Of a DNA stretch of 33,751 nt, positions 13,046-20,864 are shown piece by piece. The notes beneath the pieces are model-generated. The model saw only the letters and a program-made list of their open reading frames with translations, was not told the origin of the DNA and made no database searches. Within the stretch, counting starts at the first letter, position 1; each line of letters opens with the position of its first letter. Source of the DNA: a virus; the IMG/VR virus record IMGVR_UViG_3300017763_000081, positions 1 to 33,751 of that record, one strand, 5' to 3'. The translations under genes and the position numbers were made by a program.

Positions 13046-13939
13046 ATGGCTGACGCAATTATTCACCTAGGTGGGTATGGCTCGGGAGCTTGGGATACTG
13101 ATACTTGGGGTGAAACAGTAACTAATTTTACTGGCACCACAGGTTTAGGCAGTGTTACAACGTCAGCTAATGCTACCGCAAGTGTAACAGGACTAGCTGG
13201 TACGACAGCCTTAGGGGATGTCAGCTTTGCTATTATTGTTAACATGGCCGTTACAGGAGTGGTAGGCACAACTGGGTTAGGTACAACAACAGAAATTATT
13301 GCGGGTGGTGGAGCGTCACCAACGGGAGTAAGTGCAACAGGAAGCGTAGGTACTTCAACTGCGTCAGGCAAATCATCAACTACAGTAAGTGGTGTGGGTG
13401 GTACAACTGGACTTGGGTATGTAACATACGTAGAAACTTGGACTGGCTGGGGTTCTGGACCGTGGGGTCGAGGAACTTGGGGTAAACCGGTTATATTAGC
13501 AGTAGTAACGGGTGTAAGTGCAACAGGAGCTTTAGGAACTGCTACTGTAGATGCAGAATCATCACACACAGTTACGGGAGTTGTAGGAACAACTGGATTA
13601 GGAGCCGTATCTACTGTTTCAGATTCTGTAGTAGAAGCTGTTTTAGGAGACTTTGGTACAACCGCTCTTGGCACAGTTACTGTAGGAGCCAAAGCAACAG
13701 CGTCCGTAACAGGAGTGAGTGCGACAGCTACACCAGGCACTACTACTACTATTACGGAGAATAGAGTTCTGCCTGCAGGAGTAGCAGGAACAAGTGCAGC
13801 TGGCACGGCTAGCGTAAGTGGTAAAGCAACTGTAGATGTGACGGGGGTTAGTGGAACTTGTGAAACTAACGATTTTACTTTGGTATGGGGATTGATAGAC
13901 ACAGCTCAAGACCCTAAATGGACGAGGATAGTAGCATGA
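13046..13939 (+). CDS. Repetitive Gly/Thr/Val-rich tail structural protein
   Basis: A 297-residue protein made of degenerate repeats of about 20-25 residues with the core VTGV.GTTGLG.V or VSATG..GT.TV, seen at least eight times. Two Trp/Gly elements interrupt it: YGSGAWDTDTWGE near the N-terminus and WGSGPWGRGTWGKP near residue 137. It is nearly free of charged residues, so a beta-repeat fibre or spike is likely. The C-terminus switches to a short non-repeat VWGLIDTAQDPKWTRIVA. The coding repeats create a long antisense ORF, which is a shadow. Its stop overlaps the next start (ATGA). Confidence 0.68.
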   Translation: MADAIIHLGGYGSGAWDTDTWGETVTNFTGTTGLGSVTTSANATASVTGLAGTTALGDVSFAIIVNMAVTGVVGTTGLGTTTEIIAGGGASPTGVSATGSVGTSTASGKSSTTVSGVGGTTGLGYVTYVETWTGWGSGPWGRGTWGKPVILAVVTGVSATGALGTATVDAESSHTVTGVVGTTGLGAVSTVSDSVVEAVLGDFGTTALGTVTVGAKATASVTGVSATATPGTTTTITENRVLPAGVAGTSAAGTASVSGKATVDVTGVSGTCETNDFTLVWGLIDTAQDPKWTRIVA

Positions 13940-14139
13940 TAGTTGAAGCACAAACATTAAAAGATGGTACAATAGTAAATAAATATGAAACGCATCTAGA
14001 ATGTTCTAATTGTGGAATGAAAGTAGATGCAGAAGAATACGAATCAGGAATCTGCTCTGATTGTGGTGCCGCATGGAATCCTAAGCAACACACAAAAGTC
14101 CATGTCACAAGTGTACCTGCAAGCGGCCAAACAAGTTAA
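13936..14139 (+). CDS. Small zinc-ribbon protein
   Basis: I start at 13936, where the ATG overlaps the preceding stop as ATGA and GAGG lies eight bases upstream; the in-frame ATG at 13918 is less likely. The 67-residue product has two Cys pairs, CSNC near residue 24 and CSDC near residue 43, spaced by 15 residues with GMKVDAEEYESGI between, a typical zinc ribbon. The C-terminal part is polar. It could bind nucleic acid or stabilise a tail structure; no further assignment is possible. Confidence 0.65.
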   Translation: MIVEAQTLKDGTIVNKYETHLECSNCGMKVDAEEYESGICSDCGAAWNPKQHTKVHVTSVPASGQTS

Positions 14140-15340: not shown

Positions 15341-15634
15341 ATGCAATTAGAAAAAGGTACTTTTTGTCCTTTACTAAAGAAAAAATGTATAGGTTTAGAA
15401 TGTTCTTGGTTTGTTAAAATACAAGGAATTGATAAAAATACTGGCAACCAAGTAGATGAATATAATTGTTCTATAGCTTGGATGCCTTTGTTACAGATAG
15501 AAAACTCAGGTACTCAAAGAGAAACTGGAGCAGCAGTCGAATCATTTAGAAATGAAATGGTAAAAGCTAATGAAAATAGCATTAAAGTATTAGCTGAAAG
15601 CGCAAAACAAAATTTATTAGGAGATAAGAAATGA
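15341..15634 (+). CDS. Cys-rich small phage protein, unknown
   Basis: A 97-residue soluble protein with AAAGGG upstream. The N-terminal half has four cysteines (FCPLLKKKCIGLECSWF and later EYNCSIAW), a metal-site-like arrangement. The C-terminal half is helical (TGAAVESFRNEMVKANENSI). The two halves together (FCPL...CIG..C.W......G....Y.C..AW.P.L.IEN) form a family that I recognise from tail regions of marine myo- and podoviruses without known function. It overlaps the next gene by four bases. Confidence 0.66.
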   Translation: MQLEKGTFCPLLKKKCIGLECSWFVKIQGIDKNTGNQVDEYNCSIAWMPLLQIENSGTQRETGAAVESFRNEMVKANENSIKVLAESAKQNLLGDKK

Positions 15635-16542
15635 AACTGTCAATTATAGTAGCCGATAATTCTGTTGCTAAAAATGAAGTAGGATATGTTGGTTTAGACC
15701 TATCGACTTGCAGTATTCCAGCAAATGTATGGGCGTTGCAATGGGATGGAATCAAAGGGCATATTGAATACCAAGGTCAAGGAGTAAATACTGAGATAGA
15801 TGAACTACCTAATTGGGCAGAAGCTGCAGAAATTAAGTGGCAAGCAGCAAAAGATTCTTTTGATGCTCTTAAAGAAGCTGAAGAAAATGCAACTCCTGTA
15901 GCTGAAGCATTTTGGGATAATTACCCTGTAGCTAATATTCAATCAGTAGATAAAATTTTGCTTAAAACATATCCAGGTGTAACTAATGTTCGAGGAGCTG
16001 ACCCAGTAACAAATGTAGTTAAATCAGTACAAACTACTTTAGTTGCTCCAGGCGCAACTGCATTAGCATCATTAGAAACATTATTAAACGAATGTAAAGC
16101 TTTAGGGTTACCTGTAACTTCAGATGCTTTTGCACAAGACACTCCACAAAGTTTTAAAGATTATATGGTAGGACTAGGATACACTATATATAGTGGTGTT
16201 AATGCATTAGGACAGTCTTACGAAAAAGTTTATTATCCTTGGAGTGATGATTTAGCTGCTAAAAAAGCAGACCAAGACGTTAATATAGCTAGAGAAGCAT
16301 CACTTGCTGAAGGCGTAGATTGGAATGGCTCTAATTGGCAGATAGATTTAAATAGCCGTAATAACGTTATGAATCAACTAACTGCTATTACTTCAGGTGT
16401 ATATACAGATGCAACTGTTACTTGGAGAAATACAGCTAACGTAGATGTAGAACTTACTGTAGATGAGTTTAAAGAACTAGCTGGTGCAGTAAATGCAAAA
16501 GTTGAAGAGATATATTTAGCTTCATTCGCTGCAAAGGCATAA
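15631..16542 (+). CDS. DUF4376-containing tail-fibre-associated protein
   Basis: A 303-residue protein following the fibre gene. The N-terminus (DNSVAKNEVGYVGLDLSTCS, then IPANVWALQWDGIKGHIEYQ) resembles the beginnings of phage fibre-assembly proteins. The C-terminal 80 residues (WNGSNWQIDLNSRNNVMNQL, then TWRNTANVDVELTVDEFKEL, AGAVNAKVEEIY) match the DUF4376 domain, found at the ends of phage tail proteins. A helical, polar region joins the two. It probably helps fold or cap the fibre, or is itself a fibre part. The next gene starts after three bases, and the module then changes to metabolic genes. Confidence 0.7.
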   Translation: MKLSIIVADNSVAKNEVGYVGLDLSTCSIPANVWALQWDGIKGHIEYQGQGVNTEIDELPNWAEAAEIKWQAAKDSFDALKEAEENATPVAEAFWDNYPVANIQSVDKILLKTYPGVTNVRGADPVTNVVKSVQTTLVAPGATALASLETLLNECKALGLPVTSDAFAQDTPQSFKDYMVGLGYTIYSGVNALGQSYEKVYYPWSDDLAAKKADQDVNIAREASLAEGVDWNGSNWQIDLNSRNNVMNQLTAITSGVYTDATVTWRNTANVDVELTVDEFKELAGAVNAKVEEIYLASFAAKA

Positions 16543-16545
16543 CCT

Positions 16546-17499
16546 ATGCAAAAGGTCTTAGAGTTCATTTTTAATAATGGGTTCTTAAGAAAATGTAGTA
16601 ACGATGCAAAAGTAAAAGCAACACAAGCTTTTGTTTATATTAGTGCTATAGTTACTATGATTTTTGCTTGGGATACTACATTATTCTTAATCGCCCTAGC
16701 TCTAGGGTGGCTTTGTTTTGGCTTGTGTGTAAGTGTAGGATTACACAAATATGCAGCTCACAGAACGTATGAACCTAAAAATCGACTTATTAAATGGATT
16801 GTATTATGGTTTGCTACTATTGGCTCTTTAGGTAGCACTATCTGTTGGGCTGCAGGGCATAGAGCTCATCATCGACATTCTGACCACATCGAAGACCCTC
16901 ATCGACCAAAAGGTAACTTATGGCACAAGATAAAAGTATGGTTCTATTATGTACCTGCGTTTAATATAAACCCTCTTATCATTAAAGATTTATCTAGAGA
17001 TAAAGACCACGCATTTTTTCACAAGCATTATTACAAAATTATATTTAGTTATGTAGGGGTTTTAGCATTAATTAATCCAGCATATGTAGGTTACTTCTAT
17101 GGCATTCCTATTTGGTATACGTTAATAGGTATTAGTTGGGCTACAGTAATTGCACATATACCTGTACTAAGCTACGGACTACCAGGTACTTGGAGAACGT
17201 ACAACTCTAAAGATTACACAGTAAATAGTCATCTATGGTCTATATTATTTATGGGCGAAGGATTACATAACACACACCATGCAGTACCAGGGTTATGGAA
17301 TAATGCAATTAACAAAGGTGAGTTTGATTTAACAGCTCCTATAATAAAGTTGATTGGTAAACCAAATAATGCTACAGTACGAAAACACCCTCGAATAAGA
17401 AGAGGTTATAAAGTAATTAAAAAAGAACTTAGAGAGGTTCAAGATTATATAGACGAGTATGATAAAACTCATTCAAAAACAGGCCATTATACTTCCTAA
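16546..17499 (+). CDS. Membrane fatty-acid desaturase (acyl delta-9 type)
   Basis: This 317-residue integral membrane protein has all three histidine clusters of the membrane fatty-acid desaturase superfamily: HKYAAH (67-72), HRAHH (105-109) and HNTHH (241-245). These hold a di-iron centre that inserts a cis double bond into an acyl chain using O2. Hydrophobic segments are at about 30-63, 83-103 and 165-205. Length and motif spacing fit the stearoyl-CoA or acyl-lipid delta-9 group. AAAGG lies eight bases upstream. It is followed by a cupin-like protein and an acyl carrier protein, suggesting the acyl substrate might be ACP-bound. Phage use may be membrane remodelling or modification of a virion or lipid component. 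Substrate and regiochemistry cannot be read from sequence. Confidence 0.9.
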   Translation: MQKVLEFIFNNGFLRKCSNDAKVKATQAFVYISAIVTMIFAWDTTLFLIALALGWLCFGLCVSVGLHKYAAHRTYEPKNRLIKWIVLWFATIGSLGSTICWAAGHRAHHRHSDHIEDPHRPKGNLWHKIKVWFYYVPAFNINPLIIKDLSRDKDHAFFHKHYYKIIFSYVGVLALINPAYVGYFYGIPIWYTLIGISWATVIAHIPVLSYGLPGTWRTYNSKDYTVNSHLWSILFMGEGLHNTHHAVPGLWNNAINKGEFDLTAPIIKLIGKPNNATVRKHPRIRRGYKVIKKELREVQDYIDEYDKTHSKTGHYTS

Positions 17500-17905
17500 C
17501 GACCAAGTAACTATAGTTAGGTATTCCCTCTTAGGTTTAATAAATAAAATATGTGTAAATGTAATATATGCTGACGTGGAAAACTATCATAGCCACCCTT
17601 GGAATTATACTTCTATTATATTGTGGGGACGCTACAAGGAGACGCAGTGGAAAGATGGAAAAACCATTACCAAAACTTATTACCCCGGTAGTATATTAAG
17701 ACGAAGATATAATCAGTTTCATAGAATAGTACCTATAGGCAAAAGAGTTATTACATTATTTTTAAGAGGAGCTACAAAAACAAAAGCAAATTTATGGGTA
17801 TATAAAAATAAAGTTTATCCTGAATCTAAATATTGGTTAATGAAAGGGTACACTAAAGAAAAAATGAGAAAACTATTTAACTATATGAAAGAATACAATG
17901 AATAA
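17459..17905 (+). CDS. Cupin-like protein
   Basis: A 148-residue protein overlapping the desaturase by 41 bases in another frame. A cupin pattern is visible: HSHPWNYTSIILWGRYKET (His44, His46 and perhaps Glu61) followed by a strand with YPGSILRRRYNQFHRIVP (His88), the usual HxH...E and H metal ligands. The family includes many small non-haem iron enzymes, isomerases and binding proteins, so the activity is open. The neighbours suggest it serves the same pathway as the desaturase, ACP and oxygenases. It is AT-rich like the rest of the cassette. Confidence 0.6.
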   Translation: MIKLIQKQAIILPNDQVTIVRYSLLGLINKICVNVIYADVENYHSHPWNYTSIILWGRYKETQWKDGKTITKTYYPGSILRRRYNQFHRIVPIGKRVITLFLRGATKTKANLWVYKNKVYPESKYWLMKGYTKEKMRKLFNYMKEYNE

Positions 17906-18131
17906 AATTGAACAAGAAGTAAAAGAAATAATAGTAAAAAGCATTGATAAAGTAGTGTTGGATAGAATAAAACTAACTGATACTTTAGAAGATTTAGGTG
18001 CAGACTCTTTAGACTCTGTTGAAATAATTATGAGTTTAGAAGAAAAATATAATATTAAAGTATCGGAAGATGTATTCTCTGACATTCATACTGTACAAGA
18101 TATAGTAGATTATATAAAGAAAACAAAGTGA
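17898..18131 (+). CDS. acpP: Acyl carrier protein
   Basis: A 77-residue acidic four-helix carrier. The phosphopantetheine attachment motif is present: LGADSLDSVEIIMSLEEKY with Ser37 in DSL, followed by NIKVSEDVFSDIHTVQDIVD, matching AcpP over its whole length. A holo-ACP synthase of the host would load the prosthetic group. ACPs carry growing acyl chains; beside a desaturase it may hold the substrate or product. It overlaps both neighbours by a few bases. Its Lys-rich ends (MNKIEQEVKE, IKKTK) and low GC fit the local cassette. Confidence 0.92.
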   Translation: MNKIEQEVKEIIVKSIDKVVLDRIKLTDTLEDLGADSLDSVEIIMSLEEKYNIKVSEDVFSDIHTVQDIVDYIKKTK

Positions 18132-18817
18132 ATATAAATTACACTTTTGCCCCTAAAGCAAACCAATTAGAAGACGTTATTTTTTTTGAACCTGAACCTG
18201 TAATAGATTATTTATCTACTAGCAGAAAAGGAACTAAAATTTTAAAGTGTCCAGCTTTTTTAGATTATTATAAAAATACATACCTTATCAAAGCTCCTAT
18301 AGATTTAACATTTAAAATATCAGGGTCACATATTGATTGTCAAAATTTATACCCTCAAGATTATCTAAAAAAAATATTTAGTAATAGGCATCAACCAGAA
18401 AATCTTTATTCGACTGTTTCTTTAGCTTGGTATTATATGTTCTATAGTAATAAGTCAGTAATGATTGAAGTAATACCCCCTGTATGGCACAAGAATAAAT
18501 TACAAAATAATATAAATATAATTGGTGCAACTTTTGATATATCTAAGTGGTATAGACCTTTAGAGTTTGCTTTTGAAATTATAGACGATACACAGCTTAT
18601 AGTAATAAAACGAGGAGACCCTTTATACTATGTAAAATTTAATACTTTAGATAAAATTAAATTAGATAGGCAAGAATCTACTAAAAAAATTGAAGAGCTA
18701 ATTATTATGTGTACACAGTTAAAAAATTATATACCTAACAATAGCATGCGTAAAAACTATAGTTTAATGCACAAATTAATAGATAAATTTAAACCAAAAA
18801 AGTGTCTATTTAAATGA
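18128..18817 (+). CDS. Unknown protein of the oxygenase/ACP cassette
   Basis: A 229-residue protein with a GTG start overlapping the ACP stop. Its sequence is rich in Tyr, Lys, Ile and Asn. Segments such as KILKCPAFLDYYKNTYLIKA and PIDLTFKISG, then MFYSNKSVMIEVIPPVWHK and FDISKWYRPLEFAFEIIDD, read as a compact alpha/beta fold. I recall similar proteins (CPAF.D..KNTY.IK.P.DL) beside 2OG-Fe oxygenases in cyanophages and other marine phages, without known activity. No catalytic residues stand out. Position suggests it acts with the oxygenase-like proteins that follow. Confidence 0.6.
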   Translation: MNINYTFAPKANQLEDVIFFEPEPVIDYLSTSRKGTKILKCPAFLDYYKNTYLIKAPIDLTFKISGSHIDCQNLYPQDYLKKIFSNRHQPENLYSTVSLAWYYMFYSNKSVMIEVIPPVWHKNKLQNNINIIGATFDISKWYRPLEFAFEIIDDTQLIVIKRGDPLYYVKFNTLDKIKLDRQESTKKIEELIIMCTQLKNYIPNNSMRKNYSLMHKLIDKFKPKKCLFK

Positions 18818-19326
18818 CACAATTTAGTAGACTAGAAACTTTATCAAATGATGCCTTAGAGTTTTGGAATATTACAAATGTTAATAATGATATATTAGCT
18901 CAAGAAGTTTTAAAAAATATAGATAATAGATTATCTACAGATGATGCTACCACTTTAGTTGAAGACACTCACATTGATATGCAAGCCCCAGAAACAAAAA
19001 AATTAATAAAAGAAATAACCGAAGTATTTAATTTTAGAAATTTAGTAAACGTAGACATATGGGGGCAGATACATAGAAAATATGAAAGCACTCAACTGCA
19101 TGACCATCCCCAGCAAGTATCATGGGTATATTATGTAAAAACACCTCCTAGAGCAGGAGCTTTAGTTTTTAATATACAACAAGGTAATTATAGACCTAAG
19201 CAAATTCAATTTTACCCACAAGCTGGAGAATTAATTATGTTTCCACATTGGGTGCTACATCAAGTAAATAAAAATTTAGATGACGAATATAGAATAAGTA
19301 TCGCAGGAAACGCAAAATATGAGTAA
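18814..19326 (+). CDS. 2OG-Fe(II) oxygenase-like protein (type 5)
   Basis: A 170-residue double-stranded beta-helix enzyme-type protein. Conserved features of the phage 2OG-FeII_Oxy_5 type group are visible: W.QIH near 83-87, LHDHPQQVSWVYYVKTPP with the first metal His (96 or 98), AGALVF, then GELIMFPHWVLHQVNKN with distal His149 and Arg160 in EYRISIAGN for 2-oxoglutarate binding. Such enzymes use O2 and 2-oxoglutarate to hydroxylate a substrate, which here is unknown. It overlaps the preceding and following genes by a few bases. Candidate substrates are a fibre protein, a sugar or a lipid group made by the cassette. Confidence 0.75.
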   Translation: MTQFSRLETLSNDALEFWNITNVNNDILAQEVLKNIDNRLSTDDATTLVEDTHIDMQAPETKKLIKEITEVFNFRNLVNVDIWGQIHRKYESTQLHDHPQQVSWVYYVKTPPRAGALVFNIQQGNYRPKQIQFYPQAGELIMFPHWVLHQVNKNLDDEYRISIAGNAKYE

Positions 19327-19867
19327 TATTAATGGTAAAGATATAAATAACCGAAAGCTTTATATAGAAGACAATTGTTTTTCAAGGGCTTATCAGGAGA
19401 CTTTTTATTCATTTGCTGCTACAAATAATAATTATCAGTTAGGTTTTAATGACACAGATGTAGTAGAAAGACAGCAATATAAATATTATACTTCCAACAT
19501 GGGGGAACAAGAATTACTTCAAACTAAACTTTTTGATGAATTATATAAAACAGAAATAGGGCAAATTATTAAAAATAAACAATTAGTAAGATGTACTATA
19601 AATTCTTCTACAGCTAGCCAAGTTAATTATGCGCATACACACCCAGACCATTTTTCTCTTTTATACTACATAAATTTAGATTGGAAACCAGAATGGGCTG
19701 GAGAAACTTTATTTTATAATGAAGCAGTAGATGAAATTGAATTTACCTCTATATATAAGCCTAATAGAATTATATTATTTGAAGGAGAAATACCTCATTC
19801 TTTACGGTGTCAATCTGTTGCAGCGCCTGAATATAGATTTAGTTTAGCAATGTTTTTTAATAAGTAG
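19319..19867 (+). CDS. 2OG-Fe(II) oxygenase-like protein (prolyl-hydroxylase-like)
   Basis: A 182-residue protein with the 2OG-Fe(II) oxygenase pattern. HTHPDHFSLLYYINLDW has the first metal ligands (His106 or the H108-P-D110 triad). WAGETLFYNE and YKPNRIILFEGEIPHSLR follow, with distal His160 and Arg173 in EYRFSLAMFF for 2-oxoglutarate. It is the second oxygenase-like gene of the cassette, not obviously a duplicate of the first, so the two may act in sequence. Substrate unknown. After it a short non-coding stretch precedes the lysis genes. Confidence 0.78.
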   Translation: MSNINGKDINNRKLYIEDNCFSRAYQETFYSFAATNNNYQLGFNDTDVVERQQYKYYTSNMGEQELLQTKLFDELYKTEIGQIIKNKQLVRCTINSSTASQVNYAHTHPDHFSLLYYINLDWKPEWAGETLFYNEAVDEIEFTSIYKPNRIILFEGEIPHSLRCQSVAAPEYRFSLAMFFNK

Positions 19868-19874
19868 TAATCAC

Positions 19875-19902
19875 TTGGTTTAGGTAGTTAATATGGTAAA
19901 AT
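19875..19902 (+). promoter_or_regulatory. Candidate promoter for the lysis genes
   Basis: TTGGTT (19875-19880), a 16-base spacer and an extended -10 TGGTAAAAT (TAAAAT at 19897-19902) lie in the non-coding gap before the holin gene. No terminator precedes it, so read-through from the cassette would also occur. The ribosome binding site AGGAG is at 19917-19921. Confidence 0.5.
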
Positions 19903-19928
19903 AAGGGCATTGTGTTAGGAGTAAAAAT

Positions 19929-20411
19929 ATGTTATCAATCTTATCAGGAATACTAGGTTTTGCAACATCAGGATTACCTAGCGTATTAAAGTTTTTTGAA
20001 CAAAAAGGCGACCAAAAACATGAACAAGAGATGGCTAAGCTTGAAATACAGCGAACTATGGAGTTAGCAAAAGCTGGCTATGCATCTCAAGAAAAAATTG
20101 AAGAGTTTAAAACTGACCAAGTTGAAATGGAAACGTATGCTCAAGAAAGAGTTGCGTTATACCAACACGACGAAAAAGTCGCGGAAGGCGCGTCTACTTG
20201 GGTTATTAATCTCCGTGCTAGTGTTCGCCCCATTATCACCTATATTTTTGTTTTTATTTTATTGGTGGTCGATTTCGTAGGATTATATTGGGCTATAAAG
20301 TCAGGACATAATTATGCAGAAGCTATGCATATAGTGTTTAGTAATGAAGAAATGGCTATATTAGCATCTATTATTGGCTTTTGGTTCGGGTCTAGACATT
20401 GGGAAAAATAA
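19929..20411 (+). CDS. Holin, 3TM (gene-transfer-release) type
   Basis: A 160-residue protein with a short hydrophobic N-terminus (LSILSGILGFATSGLPSVL), a charged coiled-coil (residues 25-85), then WVINLRASVRPIITYIFVFI and a second membrane stretch (about 101-122 and 140-155) ending FWFGSRHWEK. The W...LR...RP..TY motif before membrane segments and the F.FG.R C-terminus match the 3TM holin family used for lysis or gene transfer agent release. It makes the membrane hole through which the endolysin, encoded directly after, reaches the wall. Confidence 0.78.
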   Translation: MLSILSGILGFATSGLPSVLKFFEQKGDQKHEQEMAKLEIQRTMELAKAGYASQEKIEEFKTDQVEMETYAQERVALYQHDEKVAEGASTWVINLRASVRPIITYIFVFILLVVDFVGLYWAIKSGHNYAEAMHIVFSNEEMAILASIIGFWFGSRHWEK

Positions 20412-20864
20412 GTGAATACATCGGAGAAGGGCTTAGCTCTTATAAAGTATTTTGAAGGAGTTCGTGCGAAACCTTATAAATGTCCTGCAGGCTATTGGAC
20501 TGTGGGCGTTGGTCATCTTATCACTCGTAGTGCTGAGTTACCTGATTCATGGAATCGCGAACTGGAACCTAATGAGATAGATGAGATACTAAAAAAAGAT
20601 TTAGTAAAATTTGAAAATGGAGTTCTTCGGTTATTACATCCTAAACAACCAACACAATCTGAGTTTGATGCTCTTGTCAGCTTTAGCTTTAATCTTGGTT
20701 TGGGATGCTTTCAACGAAGTACAGTTCGTTCAGCGTTTAAGCGTGATGATAAAAAAAGGGCTGGAGAAGTTCTTTTAAAATATTGTTATGCAGGCGGTCG
20801 CAAACTTAAAGGATTGATTAGAAGAAGAATAGCTGAACATGCACTGTTGATGAGCGGGGAATAA
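20412..20864 (+). CDS. Endolysin, GH24 lysozyme
   Basis: A 150-residue GTG-initiated gene directly following the holin stop (TAAGTG), probably translated by coupling. It has the T4-type lysozyme pattern: FEG with catalytic Glu15, KCPAGYWTVGVGH with Cys24 in place of Asp and Thr30, completing the E-(D/C)-T triad of glycoside hydrolase family 24. FDALVSFSFNLGLGCFQRST and GGRKLKGLIRRRIAEHALL at the end match P22/lambdoid muramidases. It cleaves peptidoglycan between N-acetylmuramic acid and N-acetylglucosamine. No signal-anchor is present, so it depends on the holin. Confidence 0.93.
   Translation: MNTSEKGLALIKYFEGVRAKPYKCPAGYWTVGVGHLITRSAELPDSWNRELEPNEIDEILKKDLVKFENGVLRLLHPKQPTQSEFDALVSFSFNLGLGCFQRSTVRSAFKRDDKKRAGEVLLKYCYAGGRKLKGLIRRRIAEHALLMSGE

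Follow-up and report, generated by a model that had tools for sequence, protein, structure and literature searches.

A desaturase and acyl carrier protein cassette that follows a tail-protein domain in viral contigs

We have analyzed the IMG/VR virus record IMGVR_UViG_3300017763_000081, an incomplete sequence of 33751 bases (this whole stretch is called here the window), and found at positions 16546-19867 a cassette of six genes whose core, a membrane fatty-acid desaturase (DES) and an acyl carrier protein (ACP), recurs in several phage lineages and is coupled to one particular kind of tail protein. The gene content, its recurrence, the constraint acting on it and the linkage between DES and a tail protein with the middle and DUF4376 domains were observed by comparison among contigs. 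As for the chemistry, we propose a phage-owned module that would edit acyl chains bound to ACP in the service of the upstream tail protein, an account that, taken whole and with the acyl transfer included, we consider plausible although somewhat short of probable. Identities of 61-66% between the capsid protein of the window and its counterparts in HTVC023P, DSL-LC04 and Pag-Yong1 place this uncultivated phage, a relative of known SAR11 phages, near the HTVC023P-type podoviruses.

All the genes of the cassette are on the plus strand, with the tail protein gene on one side and a holin-like and lysozyme pair on the other, and the five junctions between them all overlap (by 41, 8, 4, 4 and 8 bp in gene order). 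The original prediction had described six overlapping genes with these assignments, located between tail and lysis genes, and both points were borne out, the assignments by the profile matches (below the cut-off for the second oxygenase) and the location by the DUF4376 tail protein and the T4-type lysozyme. The features are the following:

15631-16542, plus strand: putative tail protein of 303 amino acids (PF14301/DUF4376, E 1e-10), outside the coordinates first proposed for the cassette and genetically coupled to it
16546-17499, plus strand: DES, membrane fatty-acid desaturase of the stearoyl-CoA desaturase (SCD) type (PF00487, E 3e-18)
17459-17905, plus strand: CUP, small cupin-like protein (phrog_4786, 'cysteine dioxygenase', E 3e-15)
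17898-18131, plus strand: ACP, acyl carrier protein of 77 amino acids (PF00550, E 4e-15; DSLD motif with Ser37)
18128-18817, plus strand: protein of 229 amino acids with no function assigned and a GTG start (phrog_17480, E 4e-20, and phrog_7084)
18814-19326, plus strand: OX1, 2-oxoglutarate (2OG)-Fe(II) oxygenase-like protein of the PF13759/TIGR02466 type (PF13759, E 7e-14)
19319-19867, plus strand: OX2, 2OG-Fe(II) oxygenase-like protein (FlmC-family 2OG-Fe of NCBIfam, E 5e-21, below the cut-off)
19929-20411, plus strand: holin-like gene, flanking
20412-20864, plus strand: T4-type lysozyme, flanking

Coupling of the desaturase to the tail protein

The tail protein was searched for independently of DES, and one further search enlarged the tally. 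When the tail protein had both the middle and the DUF4376 domains, DES came directly next in 26 of 27 contigs. In the relatives that share only the N-terminal 60-95 residues and have another C-terminus, DES or ACP was found in none of 24 (Fisher p 1e-13, a value that overstates independence because the contigs are related). The coupling persists at tail-protein identities of about 20-45% and appears also in a T4-like genome (L024). Besides, two contigs (L019 and L023) have another N-terminal domain and still keep the middle and C-terminal domains together with DES. This swapping of the N-terminal domain while the rest stays suggests that the moving unit is made of the middle domain, DUF4376, DES (at times with a second desaturase) and ACP, the oxygenases being its variable end.

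Three domains can be told apart in the tail protein, an N-terminal beta domain (residues 1-85), a middle domain (about 90-206) and the C-terminal PF14301/DUF4376. The AF2 model had a pLDDT of 92.8 for the whole protein and 94.0 for the middle domain alone. When this domain was compared with the PDB by Foldseek, GNAT acetyltransferases came on top (best E 0.013, probability up to 0.98), and all of the 50 matches listed by VIA-align had the GNAT fold (Z 5.9-7.1, with 77-99 of 117 residues aligned). The domain corresponds to the C-terminal portion of a GNAT, as in the compact AcrVA5, and shows a Gly-rich loop ahead of the main helix; only P10 and W115 (domain numbering) are invariant. We therefore predict the middle domain to be GNAT-like, from matches that are consistent and stay below a firm threshold.

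Recurrence of the cassette and its proteins

The searches with DES gave 36 related viral contigs, after grouping by contig and with the window included. An ACP was located near DES in 26 of them, among which there are contigs retrieved by DES alone, against none in the 80 bacterial loci of the nearest DES homologues, with about 30% identity or less (Fisher p 4e-18, overstated in the same way, as some of the contigs are even near-identical). The unit is found in podovirus-like and T4-like genomes and in several arrangements. Nine contigs, counting the window, have tail-DES-cupin-ACP or tail-DES-cupin-oxygenase-ACP, one of them (L001) being nearly the window's virus; tail-DES-cupin without ACP was found in three (L003, L010 and L004, the last of which ends early). 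The order tail-DES-ACP-DES appears in ten contigs, with L187, L188 and L189 near-identical and a third desaturase in L212 and L213, and DES-DES-(cupin or oxygenase)-ACP in five, two ACPs being present in L024 and L025. The near-identical L012 and L013 have DES-DES-ACP, followed in L013 by T4-like terminase and portal genes. Finally, seven contigs have a lone related DES; in those examined, a hexapeptide acyltransferase and an S-adenosylhomocysteine hydrolase come next.

The linkage of DES and ACP across phage lineages supports the earlier suggestion that they would be a real acyl-chain unit, as does a gene for AcpS (holo-ACP synthase) detected in one T4-like relative (L262 1377-1778, in the contig of L013, G003:C1 about 19876-20277, in a stretch running from a UvsW-like helicase to other T4-like genes). 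A phage AcpS in one relative fits with a phage ACP that needs activation; within the window no AcpS was found. The genes do not appear scattered with no conserved order, since DES-cupin-ACP or DES-(DES)-ACP recurs. A gene order that recurs in independent contigs, together with purifying selection, puts the cassette beyond chance. The interpretation first given for the cassette is supported in part; the oxygenases vary, and ACP is absent in at least two close relatives.

In the maximum-likelihood tree, 24 desaturase rows, all from phages, form one clade (support 99/98). DES belongs to it together with the lone-DES group and several second desaturases, but not the second desaturases found in the DES-ACP-DES arrangement. 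A search for a recent bacterial donor of DES gave none, the best bacterial relatives having low identity and the phage sequences standing apart in their supported clade. None of the annotated phage records had a DES relative above 28% identity, the best true phage match being that of Pelagibacter phage Mosig (26%), in another oxygenase-rich region near tail fibres, and no isolate phage of the phage collection carries the cassette. The desaturase and ACP matches of 'Acinetobacter phage MD-2021a' lie among bacterial housekeeping genes, and we took them for contamination of bacterial origin; the sequences with that name (CAKLQH020000002 and CAKLQF020000003) look like bacterial chromosome contigs. 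Searches with ACP alone retrieved many unrelated phage ACPs without DES.

Regarding the individual proteins, DES matches PF00487 with 66.8 bits (cut-off 29.7) and the acyl-CoA desaturase 4ymk of the PDB with E 2e-8. In the alignments nine of nine metal-ligand histidines are kept (H67, H72, H105, H108, H109, H204, H241, H244 and H245). The ninth SCD histidine had been taken as missing, with NSHLW read as the NSxxH motif, and this was dropped because the bacterial homologues show H204 to be the ligand. By its family and intact ligands DES is classified as a SCD-type membrane desaturase, with an acyl chain as probable substrate. ACP matches PF00550 with 56.4 bits and TIGR00517 with E 2e-19, slightly below the cut-off, and Ser37 of its DSLD phosphopantetheine site is invariant in the alignment of nine homologues. 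CUP had no match in Pfam, so that its family placement rests on PHROG 4786; the residues H44, H46, E61 and H88 are invariant in the alignment and would be the metal ligands of a HxH...E...H motif. Its start codon inside DES is conserved among the homologues. OX1 matches PF13759 with 52.4 bits (cut-off 27), and OX2 stays below the cut-offs of PF13640 (21.7 bits, cut-off 27) and FlmC-family 2OG-Fe (75.4 bits, cut-off 240). Nearly every relative has its own set of oxygenases, and by this comparison of sequences the oxygenases are classed as the variable, replaceable part of the cassette. The 229-amino acid protein is present in few relatives, one of them without DES, and is not a fixed member.

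The cassette had also been described as more AT-rich than its surroundings and, for this reason, as compatible with a separate acquisition. The first part is true (mean gene GC 0.290 in the cassette versus 0.383 outside, p 2e-4; the DES gene has 34.5%), but the second is not supported. Actually, GC at third codon positions was 0.195 versus 0.215 (p 0.48) and the AT excess sits at codon positions 1 and 2, that is, in the amino-acid content. With third positions like those of the flanks, AT-richness does not speak for recent acquisition. Mobility is better seen in the comparison with the phage of L011, which gave identities of 91% for DES (dS 0.66), 65% for the stabilization protein (dS 1.61) and about 43% for the tail protein; DES being more alike between contigs than the flanking genes suggests transfer. 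The dN/dS of DES was 0.05-0.08, indicating strong purifying selection, stronger than in the structural genes compared.

Possible function and other explanations

In the account we favor, the phage ACP would receive its 4'-phosphopantetheine arm from the host AcpS, or from the phage AcpS in the one relative that has it, and would be loaded with a fatty-acyl chain out of the host fatty-acid pool. One or more double bonds would then be introduced into the ACP-borne chain by the membrane desaturase or desaturases, and CUP and the variable 2OG-Fe(II) oxygenases may oxidize either the chain or its acceptor. The acyl group would finally pass to the tail protein or to a neighboring fiber, the GNAT-like middle domain probably acting as acyltransferase or docking domain. 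The GNAT-fold RtxC/HlyC enzymes use acyl-ACP, and ApxIC lacks the elements for CoA (PMC8339906). In CdiA it is the receptor-binding domain that CdiC acylates, and this promotes target recognition (PMC8510554); a tail that bears lipid could hold more firmly to the outer membrane of the host, as has been proposed for CdiA acylated by CdiC. Acyltransferase-type genes adjoin DES elsewhere too (hexapeptide in L219 and L223, GNAT in L232), which we count in favor of this account. The two roles suggested at first fared differently: decoration of the virion gains from the coupling of DES to the tail protein and from its GNAT-like domain, and membrane fluidity for lysis stays as a rival. The wider proposal of a whole family of tail-module cassettes, each providing a custom unsaturated and oxidized acyl group on a phage carrier for attachment to a tail protein with a built-in acyltransferase domain, is possible and we put it forward as doubtful.

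Several observations weigh against the favored account. ACP is missing from the close relatives L003 and L010, seven contigs have a related DES on its own, and in L012 and L013 the DES-DES-ACP order is found without this tail protein. The sole exception to the coupling, L247 (2112-3032), has a tail protein with both domains followed by holin and peptidase genes, with no DES or ACP nearby. The GNAT assignment is made at the level of the fold (Foldseek E above 0.01, Z below 8), few of the residues are invariant and a catalytic dyad is not evident, and the middle domain may be non-catalytic. The HlyC-family profile (PF02794) gave no match in ten contigs, in which the control profiles were equally silent.

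The alternative that survives best, although we judge it rather unlikely, is the remodeling of the host membrane. DES would desaturate acyl chains of the host, in the form of acyl-ACP, acyl-CoA or lipid, and the ACP of the phage would feed phospholipid or lipid A synthesis, with fluidity tuned late in infection and the tail-gene neighborhood merely reflecting late expression. An enzyme of the membrane SCD type and a unit that adjoins the lysis genes speak for it, and there are viral parallels in the lipid desaturases of cyanophages (Roitman et al., 2018, cited in PMC11480375) and in the fabF and stearoyl-CoA desaturase of a freshwater pelagimyophage group (PMC7029224). However, a desaturase of bulk lipids needs no dedicated ACP, its coupling to two particular tail domains instead of to lysis genes is not predicted, and the T4-like contigs have the unit beside tail, neck or terminase genes and not beside lysis genes.

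It is unlikely that we are looking only at a hot spot, in which the site between tail and lysis genes gathers accessory genes with separate roles that travel together when recombination takes place at the tail gene. HTVC023P has 2OG oxygenases and a ferrochelatase in the same slot, and both the changing oxygenase set and the excess similarity of DES over its flanks would suit this explanation. But the DES-ACP pair is found in different orders (DES-cupin-ACP, DES-ACP-DES and DES-DES-ACP-ACP) and at different sites of unrelated phages, which argues that it is not one frozen recombinant, and the 24 relatives without the tail domains had neither gene.

Modification of the host surface appears improbable. 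Here the edited chain would be put on a molecule of the host envelope (lipid A or a surface glycan, for instance) to prevent superinfection or the re-adsorption of progeny, and the tail module would match the receptor. This would likewise explain the coupling to the tail domains, and the lone-DES relatives precede a hexapeptide acyltransferase of the sugar-acylating kind. 2OG oxygenases acting on lipid A chains do exist (LpxO). Against this, the profile scans showed no glycosyltransferase or lipopolysaccharide acyltransferase among the cassette genes. Lastly, a small-molecule pathway like the jamABC and polyyne clusters, in which desaturases convert an ACP-bound chain into an alkene or alkyne, is very improbable: the up to three desaturases plus ACP of L213 resemble the polyyne desaturase triad with its ACP (PMC8406139), but the fatty acyl-AMP ligase (PF00501) was found in none of ten contigs (some of them fragments, with 12 of 14 controls matched) and no thioesterase or rubredoxin gene was recognized among the scanned cassette genes.

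Comparison with known systems

Desaturases, ACPs and 2OG oxygenases are each known from phages on their own and have mostly been read as genes of host metabolism. The cyanophage desaturases, published by Roitman et al. (2018, as cited in PMC11480375), are like the cassette a case of marine phages with a membrane desaturase as accessory gene. The freshwater pelagimyophages (PMC7029224) also have lipid genes (fabF and stearoyl-CoA desaturase) and a 2OG-Fe protein, and differ in that no ACP is mentioned. The 2OG oxygenases of pelagiphages are well known (PMC9599517, PMC11561400). In the HTVC023P-type pelagiphages, the closest ones by capsid, the same slot upstream of the stabilization protein holds 2OG-Fe(II) oxygenase and ferrochelatase accessory genes; in HTVC023P it lacks desaturase and ACP, and the text describing them (PMC9599517) mentions neither a desaturase nor an acyl carrier. 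With CdiC and RtxC, of the HlyC type (PMC8510554, PMC8339906), the cassette would share the GNAT fold (here predicted), the use of acyl-ACP and a comparable logic, CdiA being acylated at its receptor-binding domain. The differences are that the tail protein itself contains the GNAT-like domain, that no His/Asp dyad was seen, and that a dedicated ACP and desaturases are added. The jamABC and polyyne systems (PMC8406139) also pair membrane desaturases with a dedicated ACP, whereas the cassette is tied to phage tail genes and lacks the ligase in the ten contigs scanned.

In the literature, as far as it could be searched, we found no description of a desaturase and ACP cassette with a link to a tail protein. 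Here these genes make up a mobile unit, equipped with a carrier of its own, that tracks one tail domain across phage families, and following a particular tail domain points to chemistry of the virion or the receptor and not to metabolism. If true, acylation of the tail would add lipidation to the means of host recognition by phages and, once shown, would be new in kind. The cassette also suggests a function, open to experiment, for some of the many oxygenase genes without explanation that cluster near the tail genes of marine phages.

Some further observations concern the surroundings of these genes. The protein of 378 amino acids that precedes DES in L013 had no match in Pfam. In L213 (2168-6529) there are three desaturases, with ACP between the first and the second, and then a protein of 257 amino acids that by eye resembles the 229-amino acid protein of the window. 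In L219 (5851-9289) and L223 (5866-8898, part of a viral contig of 201.7 kb) a longer related desaturase without ACP is followed by the acyltransferase, NeuD/PglD-like, and the S-adenosylhomocysteine hydrolase. The distant desaturase of L232 (5462-7318) is flanked by a gene that by eye is GNAT-like and by a GNAT gene (PF00583). The tail-fiber side of Mosig (L015 1-12625) is occupied by a large island in which a desaturase is accompanied by radical-SAM-like, aminotransferase, carbamoyltransferase, nitroreductase, methylase and Asp/Arg hydroxylase genes, and which looks like another tail-side modification island. Finally, near the tail genes of the window (13918-14139) there is a small CxxCG...CxxCG protein, zinc-ribbon or rubredoxin-like, that is a putative electron donor for DES.

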